Below are positions 13,521 to 54,590 of a stretch of 64,000 nt of DNA, piece by piece. The stretch covers positions 1 to 64,000 of the forward strand of contig CACZFL010000003.1 in the NCBI GenBank assembly GCA_902780525.1. Direction: 5' to 3'. Position 1 is the stretch's first letter. Every line of letters starts with the position of its first letter. A model generated the notes under the pieces. It was not told where the DNA came from and did not search any database. It saw only the letters and a list, made by a program, of their open reading frames with translations. The position numbers and the translations under genes were made by a program. The stretch comes from an uncultured bacterium. Lineage in GTDB: Bacteria; Cyanobacteriota; Vampirovibrionia; Gastranaerophilales; Gastranaerophilaceae.

Positions 13521-13670
13521 GTCATTAAATCCTTAATTTTTTCGATATATAAACTTAATATTATAATATAACAAAAACTTTCGACTGGCACTTAAAACTT
13601 CATGAGATAGAACAATAGGCGTTAGAAGACTATCTTGGCTTGCTCGAACATCACACCATCAAAACATACT

Positions 13671-13708
13671 AAAAAAGACCAAACAACAAACGCCACTTGG
13701 TCTTTTTT
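13671..13708. terminator. Intrinsic terminator hairpin
   Basis: A 12-bp stem (13671-13682 with 13697-13708) with A6 and T6 flanks can terminate transcription in either direction. It lies immediately beside the tRNA-Ala 3' fragment, as a terminator would beside an intact tRNA gene. Confidence 0.75.
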
Positions 13709-13711
13709 GGC

Positions 13712-13726
13712 GGAGGTTAGGAGATT
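13712..13726. repeat. 15-bp copy of tRNA-Ala 3' end (possible attachment-site half)
   Basis: GGAGGTTAGGAGATT is identical to 15173-15187, the acceptor/T-arm 3' part of the tRNA-Ala gene, in the same orientation. The rest of a tRNA is absent here. Duplicated tRNA 3' ends are the classic footprint of integrase-mediated insertion. Confidence 0.55.
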
Positions 13727-13734
13727 GTCTTGGA

Positions 13735-13895
13735 TTATTGGCAGTTCGTAAACTGTCATTCGTTTTATTTCTCTTACAAGAAATAGTCACTCATTCCAGT
13801 TTTCTCACTGGGGCGGCGTTCCACTCGCTTACGCTCGTTTCAGCCTTGCCAAAATCCGCTCGAACTCTAAACTGCTCCGCAGTTGGGGGTTCTCA
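13735..13895. repeat. Array of short hairpins (structured GC-rich repeat, copy A)
   Basis: Consecutive small inverted repeats are visible: CAGTT-CGTA-AACTG, ATTTCT...AGAAAT, CCAGT...ACTGG, a CGAGC/GCTCG type, and AACTGC-TCC-GCAGTT flanked by CGAACTC and GGGGTTCTC. Related but not identical arrangements occur at about 14978-15128 and 54428-54590. Confidence 0.5.
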
Positions 13896-13912
13896 TACCT
13901 AACGCTGACAAA

Positions 13913-13950
13913 ATAAAATACACGATAACAAATGTCATCGTGTATTTTAT
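13913..13950. terminator. Hairpin, probable bidirectional terminator
   Basis: A perfect 14-bp stem (13913-13926 with 13937-13950), 10-nt loop, AT-rich outer ends. No annotated gene reads into it directly, so it may serve an unrecognised transcript of the hairpin region. Confidence 0.55.
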
Positions 13951-14223
13951 GGTGGACGTTAACATACAACATAACACAGCAAATTCTCCAAAGCACCTAG
14001 CTGTCTAGCATTGAGGCAGTCCTAAATGTTGCAATTTTTTCTAGACAAAAAACTGAAATCTTTTGCTGAAAAATTAGCAGAGTAAAGCAGAATCTGACAG
14101 TATTATTTAATGTAAGTTTGTAACAATCTCGTAATATTTGCAAAAAATTAGGCAATTTTTGAAAAGGAAAATACTTTATATAAATATGATGTGTAGTTAA
14201 TATTTCTATGAAAGGAAATCAAT

Positions 14224-14931
14224 ATGGATTTAAATGTAAGCAGTGTGAATTTAGCCAATAACTATAATTACTCTAAGACACAAAATGTTGGTTTTAAAAG
14301 TAATGTTTACAGAGTACCTATAAAACAAGAGGTAGAATGAGCAAGATACAAATTTGGGCAGAAGGCTGAAGCGTTTATGACTAAATTACGTAAGTTTTTT
14401 GGAAAAAGAAATATTGTTAATAAAAAAAAATCTTATATACCTAATAGATTATTAGAAATTCAAAAAAGAGAAATGACACCAGAAGTATATAAAGAATGGT
14501 TAAATAAGCGAATAACCAAAGAATTAGAAATTGGTAAAATAGATGTAAATCCTGATGAAATTGCCGATATAGAAATATTTAATGTGAATGGAATTTGTGA
14601 TGAAATAACAGGGAAAATGTTACCAGGCAGAAAAATATTAGCCAGCTGTTCTCAAACACCTGTATACGATGCCGCAGGTAATTTAAAATGTTATGTAGAG
14701 AATTCTCCTCTTTCAATAAATCAAATACGTTTTTATGATAAAGATAAACGAGCAATAAAAATTATTGATGTAGACAAAAATGGTAAACGTACACTTGAGG
14801 ATGTTTACATGGATAATAGAATTTTTGAAGGGAATGAAAAAACAGTAAACTATTCATATGGTGATGCATTGGAAATGCGATATCTTAAACCAGGTAGTTA
14901 TAAAGGTCTTCGTTTAATGTATGGCAAATAA
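14224..14931 (+). pseudogene. Small hypothetical gene interrupted by in-frame TGA at 14338
   Basis: An ATG at 14224 behind AAAGGA opens a frame that reads 38 codons to a TGA (14338-14340) and then continues open in the same frame for 196 codons to 14931. The part before the stop ends KQEVE and the part after begins ARYKFGQKAEAF, joining naturally to the ATG at 14377 that opens the 184-residue remainder. One gene of about 235 residues with a nonsense mutation explains this best. Alternatives are two separate genes or a sequencing error. The N-terminus (NVGFKSNVYRVP) resembles those of two other genes in the window. The rest has no recognised domain. It lies inside the tRNA-flanked region. Confidence 0.6.
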
Positions 14932-14977
14932 TTGCTAAAGTTTATAAGTGCAATTATTTGCATCTTATTTACTGCAT

Positions 14978-15128
14978 GAAGAGACTGTCTTGCTCGTTCG
15001 CGTTTAACGGCAATTCCGAGTTTTGTCTGCAAGCCTATCGGCTTTTGACAAAAACTCTCCAGCCTCAGCTCACTCGCGCCGAACTCCTGACAAGGCTCCG
15101 CCTTGTGGAGTTCTCGTCTTAGCCATAA
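14978..15128. repeat. Structured GC-rich repeat, copy B
   Basis: GC is clearly higher than in neighbouring DNA. A nested hairpin is visible (GAGTTTTGTC pairing with GACAAAAACTC around an inner AAGCC-TATC-GGCTT), followed by CGAACTC...CAAGGC-TCC-GCCTTG...GGAGTTCTC. The last element has the same TCC loop and flanks as copy A but a different stem. Confidence 0.5.
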
Positions 15129-15132
15129 CAAA

Positions 15133-15171
15133 GTTATAGCCTTATTCGGAAGCTCCGAATAAGGCTATAAC
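15133..15171 (-). terminator. tRNA-Ala terminator
   Basis: A perfect 18-bp stem (15133-15150 with 15154-15171) with loop AGC, directly abutting the 3' end of the tRNA gene and followed on the minus strand by TTTGTT. It defines the 3' end of the tRNA precursor. Confidence 0.85.
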
Positions 15172-15244
15172 TGGAGGTTAGGAGATTCGAACTCCTGACC
15201 CTCTGCGTGCAAAGCAGATGCTCTACCAGCTGAGCTAAACCCCC
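15172..15244 (-). tRNA. tRNA-Ala (UGC)
   Basis: On the minus strand this 73-nt sequence folds as a canonical tRNA. The acceptor stem GGGGGTT/AACCTCC contains the G3-U70 wobble pair that identifies alanine tRNAs. The D-arm (TAGCTCAGCTGGTAGAGCA), anticodon stem TCTGC/GCAGA with loop TTTGCAC (anticodon TGC), and T-arm with TTCGAAT are all regular. The discriminator is A; CCA is not encoded, since GTTATAG follows. A 15-bp copy of its 3' end lies 1.46 kb downstream. Confidence 0.97.
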
Positions 15245-15352
15245 ACAGAGTTAGTCAACATTATTAATAATACATGGTGATTTTTTTTTGTAAAGGGGTA
15301 GGAGTAAATATATTTGTATTTTTTTGTATCTCGTACTCTTACACCGCTAAAA

Positions 15353-54427: not shown

Positions 54428-54590
54428 GGCGAGTACCCGTTTGCTGTGTCTTTGATTTTGCTTTACACTACGCAGTCGCTCACTATATTATGCTATTGCA
54501 TAACTAATGTTCGCTTTGCTTCGTGTTACTTCTGGTCTCCGCTAGCGCTTCGCCCTAAGCAAAATCCGCTAGTCTTCTCTTGCGCCGCCA
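54428..54590. repeat. Structured GC-rich repeat, copy C
   Basis: Like copies A and B it is a run of short hairpins with higher GC (ATGC-TATT-GCAT, TTCGC...GCTTCG types, GCTAGCGCTTCGCC) and shares CAAAATCCGCT with copy A. It lies between the CHAP gene and the 3' end of fliN and overlaps the end of fliN, which stops at 54569. Confidence 0.45.

Follow-up and report, generated by a model that had tools for sequence, protein, structure and literature searches.

The window analysed here (the first 64000 bases of contig C3 in a 2.09-Mb draft genome of the family Gastranaerophilaceae) contains an array of repeat units on the minus strand, which starts in the T-loop of a tRNA-Ala gene and extends over about 13618-15187 (Table 1). 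The original prediction had reported hairpins with a shared TCC loop at this place. Both are present on the minus strand, at 13861-13894 and 15080-15115, but the span given for them was too narrow for the array as a whole. Read in the sense of the tRNA, a unit begins with a fresh copy of the tRNA 3′ end and a terminator hairpin, continues with an arm that can pair with the T-arm of the tRNA, a TCC-loop hairpin and the 5′ half of the T-arm, and closes with a folding body of 90-133 nt (GCG...AAGAC) and the old tRNA 3′ end. In the B unit, the T-loop is followed by the new 3′ end, the terminator-like hairpin, the complementary arm, a hairpin whose loop reads TCC on the plus strand, the T-arm 5′ half and the body. 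In the orthologous tRNA-Ala genes of L191, L193, L199, L208, L214 and L217, CCA is encoded and no whole unit is present. An ATG at 14224 is in frame with the 184-aa ORF of the array (14377-14931), with an in-frame TGA between them, and this cargo ORF is probably a decaying gene (14224-14931).

Table 1. Features of the tRNA-Ala array and of the separate C body (positions in the window)
Feature	Position	Strand	Basis
Host gene in which the array starts, tRNA-Ala (TGC)	15171-15245	-	ARAGORN, Rfam
tRNA 3′ end (T-loop onward) of the inserted B unit; completes the tRNA; without encoded CCA	15171-15187	-	comparison with orthologous tRNA-Ala genes
Symmetric terminator-like hairpin of the B unit	15133-15171	-	self-complementary match and sequence
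T-arm-complementary arm (GAGAACTCC), TCC/GGA-loop hairpin and T-arm 5′ half (GGAGTTCG) of the B unit	15080-15115	-	
B body, folding element GCGCGAGTGAGC...GAGCAAGAC	14987-15079	-	model R1, 95.1 bits, E 1.4e-23
tRNA-Leu-type 3′ end fragment (AGTCTCTTCATGC) after the B body; no match to tRNA-Ala	14974-14986	-	compared with tRNA-Leu of L027 and with L001
Cargo ORF, 184 aa, without Pfam match	14377-14931	+	
Older, degenerate tRNA-Ala 3′ end, now displaced, and the terminator-like hairpin belonging to it	13911-13963	-	alignment to L194 and L217
A unit: T-arm arm and TCC/GGA-loop hairpin	13861-13909	-	sequence and alignments
A body GCGGATTTTGGCA...TGCCAATAATCCAAGAC, 133 nt	13727-13859	-	
Old tRNA-Ala 3′ end (AATCTCCTAACCTCC...)	13710-13726	-	alignments to L191, L199, L208 and L214
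Vestige with T-loop end GTTCGA, a short remnant of a body and a 3′ end of the tRNA-Val type	13618-13649	-	sequence; compared with tRNA-Val of L022
C body alone, not at a tRNA; between a 228-aa ORF and a FliN-like gene (named by eye)	54448-54569	-	

Copies A and B had been proposed to represent a repeat family, and both match elsewhere in the same genome (E 3.2e-26 for A and 5.8e-21 for B). Behind the Gln, Asn, Thr, Met, Leu, Lys, Gly and Arg tRNA genes of that genome the order of parts is identical, and the order recurs behind many tRNA types in related genomes. Because this order recurs behind many tRNA genes, we conclude that the covarying hairpin of the original prediction is the tip of a tRNA T-arm mimic. 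The nested GAGTTTTGTC/GACAAAAACTC stem described with it proved to be the inner stem of the B body. A, C and a further type, D, are other body types with the common ends GCGGATTT...AATCC(A)AAGAC; A- and D-like bodies gave 33 pattern matches, some of them overlapping and several representing one place in overlapping loci. Copy C does share the AAAATCCGC end, as had been noticed, and represents a third body type, but its likeness to A and B was judged by eye, the model having been built from B only.

The units have a fixed insertion point, the T-loop, in tmRNA genes and in tRNA genes of 16 isotypes. Loci L073-L188 were gathered by a body pattern containing no tRNA sequence, and the bodies were then located by profile. 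A same-strand tRNA was present no more than 400 nt upstream of 84 of the resulting 140 bodies, and an opposite-strand tRNA within 400 nt of one. In four loci (L077, L110, L116 and L180) a tmRNA gene lies upstream, 64-76 nt from the nearest body, and several other bodies lie behind partial tRNAs (L074 and L137) or near a contig end. We compared the 15 nt following the body with tRNA 3′ ends in 86 units that have a tRNA at a distance of 40-125 nt; the parser skipped five more. At least 12 of 15 positions matched the unit's own tRNA in 66 units, compared with 36 of 6556 comparisons with other isotypes; in the remaining 20 units the distal 3′ end was not recognisable. The tRNA is restored by the unit, and its former 3′ end is found beyond the body.

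Copies of tRNA tails were also counted downstream of 103 tRNA genes, which lie in loci selected for containing a body: 74 copies shared the strand of the tRNA and none was on the opposite strand, with at least one copy at 57 genes, and the spacing to the first copy was mostly 170-200 bp in the arrays listed. The encoded CCA was confined to the distal end in 11 units and to the proximal end in five, with no difference in 50, a pattern too mixed for CCA to serve as the sole marker of old and new 3′ ends, and this use of it was rejected. Two other kinds of repeat were seen near tRNA genes. A further type of T-arm insertion with a CCTCTC...CTCGGCAGAG hairpin directly follows a sequence that is almost perfectly reverse-complementary to the T-arm (L229, L236 and L067, at tRNA-Gln, -Phe and -Leu), and another dispersed repeat, around CAGGGATTTTGACATAAA...AAGTTTGACATA, lies downstream of tRNA genes in L193, L198, L207, L214 and L022.

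The arms of the units are specific for the tRNA at which they reside. The T-arm 5′ half preceding the body matched the unit's own tRNA in at least four of five positions in 38 of 64 parsable units (368 of 4672 for other tRNAs). Using a 13-letter score that is anchored on GA and was devised after examples had been seen, the complementary arm reached at least 12 matches in 12 of 86 units with their own tRNA and in 23 of 6276 comparisons with others. This arm is weak in many units (49 of 86 score below 10), and an earlier test of 8 nt was not positive (10/86 own versus 197/6556 other). In 35 of the 37 units scoring at least 10, the dinucleotide opposite the RA of the T-loop is GA and not the complement, so that the insertion point would carry a tandem G-A mismatch. 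Arms and 3′ ends that fit the local tRNA would also be expected if a programmed or RNA-templated, retroelement-like insertion copied the local T-arm and 3′ end. However, the units form tRNA-specific lineages that are found again in other species (tRNA-Leu, -Ala and -Ile linkers), so that local copying need not be invoked, and we regard this explanation as improbable.

The fold of the body is conserved. In an alignment of 62 B bodies (hand-picked from 83 non-redundant ones, plus four others), 95.2% of the cells were paired in a structure that was drawn after inspection of the pairing and covariation values. The covariation originally noted between two copies extends far beyond them: both sides have changed in 16 of 21 pairs, the covariation value was 0.419 compared with 0.129 after shuffling and at most 0.128 after sliding, and the pair with the highest mutual information shows all four Watson-Crick types (T-A 21, C-G 21, G-C 9, A-T 8). 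Inspection of the alignment by eye also revealed recurrent tandem GA/GA steps at the foot of the body. Folded as DNA, the 149-nt B unit had a z-score of -5.14, and none of 200 shuffled sequences folded as well.

Such a family could represent a structured noncoding RNA, or an element of RNA processing, that is produced downstream of tRNA genes and has spread by duplication. Strong covariation and conserved internal loops in the body are compatible with this, and so is the excess of G-U over A-C cells in the tRNA sense (21 versus 7 among 1302 pair cells, with 55 other mismatches). The single invariant G-U pair (columns 19-84) likewise leans towards RNA. However, the G-U share is low for an RNA, with 1.6% in the bodies compared with 8.5% in the T stems of tRNAs of the same loci (46/540; acceptor stems 45/756), and strong covariation with so few G-U pairs leans towards folded DNA. 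Moreover, the bodies sit behind terminator-like hairpins and behind many different tRNA genes, they occur in head-to-tail chains and at intergenic sites, and orthologous loci differ in the presence of units. In a search of the window against Rfam only tRNA scored above the gathering cut-off, and the units matched no known RNA family. A structured repeat family with covarying stems, as originally predicted, stands, but its interpretation as noncoding RNA is not supported, given the low G-U content, the terminator-like hairpin ahead of the body, the scattered insertions and the variable presence; we consider an RNA function unlikely.

Presence of the units varies between species. Among 30 loci around the orthologous neighbour gene, tRNA-Ala was visible in 14, and a whole unit was found in two, the genome studied here and L194; L211 ends at a contig end, and L193, L204 and L217 carry partial units as judged by eye. 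In L194 the A unit is situated directly on tRNA-Ala, and alignment placed the counterpart of the displaced 3′ end and hairpin (Table 1) directly on tRNA-Ala in both L194 and L217. The corresponding A unit of the window, together with its tRNA-Ala 3′ end and terminator, is separated from the gene by the B unit and the ORF and lies ~1.2 kb downstream; the displaced tRNA-Ala 3′ end has decayed. Since the A unit adjoins tRNA-Ala in one genome and is displaced in the other, the tRNA-proximal unit appears to be the younger in this one ordered case. For copy C, 14 FliN loci were inspected, 12 of which have a readable gene end; the copy is absent from L275, the closest orthologous locus inspected, whose flanks have diverged. 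No pair of empty and filled sites with unchanged flanks was found among these comparisons, so that the exact ends of the units are uncertain by about 1 nt.

The original prediction had proposed a model search of related genomes. The B-body model R1 matched in 78 of 97 genomes of the family and in 38 of 41 genera. In a sample of the phylum, 119 of 292 genomes had matches, all of them in the host family except for one genome of the same order. Among 80 of the 116 matches to the body pattern, the labels were mostly Candidatus Gastranaerophilales, Melainabacteria, uncultured bacterium and Cyanobacteria metagenome-assembled genomes; one match is labelled Clostridiaceae and one Streptomyces (L105), the latter without a B-body profile match. 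The genome studied here contains 31 R1 matches, and a tRNA lies directly upstream in 12 of the 30 fetched; some of the remaining copies are in body chains (contig C19) or at contig ends. Two B bodies, those of L304 and L322, share a repeated context and differ in whether an additional GTAA-like repeat is present at the junction. Viral contigs yielded one match, L303, a small phage contig with portal- and coat-like ORFs (named by eye) and a T-arm unit near one end.

Which enzyme could move these units? None of the 97 family genomes had an integron integrase IntI (TIGR02249) above the curated cut-off. The units are hairpins and occur in chains, and Y1 genes of RAYT size are present in 32 of 97 family genomes, so that REP-like palindromes mobilised by RAYT (Y1) transposases had to be considered. 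However, the host genome contains no Y1 gene, yet it carries 31 bodies. The 330-bp flanks of 20 Y1 loci showed other repeats, of the GTAG type (by eye), and a B body occurred anywhere in only two of these loci. RAYT transposases were therefore rejected as mobilisers, and this origin of the units is very improbable. The Y1 loci themselves (L223-L242) contain RAYT-like genes with GTAG-type REP repeats in several lineages of Gastranaerophilaceae, each with its own hairpin (e.g. GTAGGTTGGGCATACTTGCCCAAC and GTAGGGTGCAATTTATTGCACC).

Six integrase-family matches were obtained in the host genome, in loci without B bodies; judging by size and sequence, two of these proteins are XerC and XerD. Small tyrosine recombinases of 150-175 aa in the host (L039, L041 and L042) were rejected as candidates, as no body is present there and only one relative was found among 1438 ORFs of L044-L188. 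Among ORFs no more than 1.5 kb from bodies, no recurrent recombinase was found; by eye, the recurrent gene clusters beside bodies comprised pilin-like proteins, regulators and toxin-antitoxin genes, in addition to spurious frames over the bodies. As no enzyme was found, we call the elements non-autonomous.

Some arrays contain cargo. We detected a ParE-type toxin (5.7e-12) with a small partner in L083, a WapI-like immunity gene (5.6e-13) in L113 and a Gp49-type toxin-like gene (7.6e-7) in L086. The tRNA-Ile array L135 carries a piece of a tyrosine integrase and a PD-(D/E)XK nuclease-like gene; typical units have no integrase gene. Much of the cargo has no complete body at its far end and may have been brought in by phages or by other elements that use this site, as in L135. 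The units might be attachment-site leftovers of phages or islands that integrate at tRNA 3′ ends, with the bodies as integrase-arm sites or hitchhikers. The genes of L135, the unit on phage contig L303 and the tandem accretion at tmRNA known from Dehalococcoides (PMC3146451) fit this explanation. However, the usual first-copy spacing in the arrays listed is too short for a gene. One body type serves many tRNA types and also occurs outside tRNA genes, and integrase attachment sites leave the covarying fold and the GA-mismatched complementary arm unexplained. An origin as attachment-site leftovers thus seems unlikely to us.

On balance, we lean modestly towards reading the units as mobile, non-autonomous DNA cassettes that in Gastranaerophilaceae use the T-loop of tRNA and tmRNA genes as their insertion site. 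We further infer a single-strand mechanism and a cassette role, in which cargo genes would move as cassettes. A recombinase acting in trans would cut the folded single-stranded element at its foot, and the cut element would be joined to the T-arm of the tRNA, its complementary arm pairing with the target so that the tandem G-A mismatch falls precisely where the element inserts. With each new cassette a further tRNA 3′ end and terminator would arrive; the tRNA would therefore stay functional, and older cassettes would be pushed downstream. We put forward this complete scheme, an integron-independent capture of gene cassettes guided by a mismatched complementary arm and repairing its tRNA at each insertion, as a tentative possibility.

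If the scheme is correct, tRNA genes anchor ordered arrays of small DNA cassettes, base pairing does the targeting and each insertion repairs the gene that it hits. Such a system would do the work of integrons in a second, independent way, and would account for part of the variable DNA of this gut lineage, including toxin-antitoxin and immunity genes. The tandem G-A site would provide a concrete handle on the enzyme. We found no description of elements of this kind in the open literature.

Several known systems share features with these units. RAYT/REP and IS200/IS605-derived elements are non-autonomous imperfect hairpins that form chains without a clear target duplication, and the units resemble them in all these respects. 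RAYT/REP elements have a conserved tetranucleotide of the GTAG type at the foot of the hairpin; in contrast, the foot here is AAGAC (GTCTT on the other strand), end motif and size differ, and Y1 genes are not associated. Casposons insert at the 3′ end of tRNA genes with repetition of the tail, as observed here, and enclose genes for a Cas1-solo integrase and polymerase B in inverted repeats, whereas the units are gene-free, insert in the T-loop and, at their typical spacing of 170-200 bp, leave no room for a gene. The ssrA-specific genomic islands of Dehalococcoides accrete in tandem downstream of tmRNA with 3′-end repeats, and have both features in common with the units. These islands are of kilobase size with serine recombinase modules; the units are about 180 bp long and gene-free and have many tRNA targets (PMC3146451).

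In layout, the units resemble integron cassettes with attC sites (PMC8352920), which also form arrays at one anchor with a core, cargo and a folding site and carry toxin-antitoxin and immunity genes, and in which, as in the bodies, structure is conserved more than sequence. The attC sites are used as single strands, as proposed here for the units. In integrons the newest unit is nearest to the anchor, and the one ordered case here, at tRNA-Ala, points to the same order. In contrast to integrons, the anchor here is the T-arm of a tRNA or tmRNA gene, no IntI scored above the cut-off in 97 genomes, each unit carries a tRNA 3′ end and most units have no gene. The attC boxes R''/R' have the form RYYYAAC/GTTRRRY. 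This type is absent from the alignment of the bodies, which end in AGCG/AAGAC. Our best reading is that the layout is integron-like, with core, cargo and folding site, but that the elements are not integrons.
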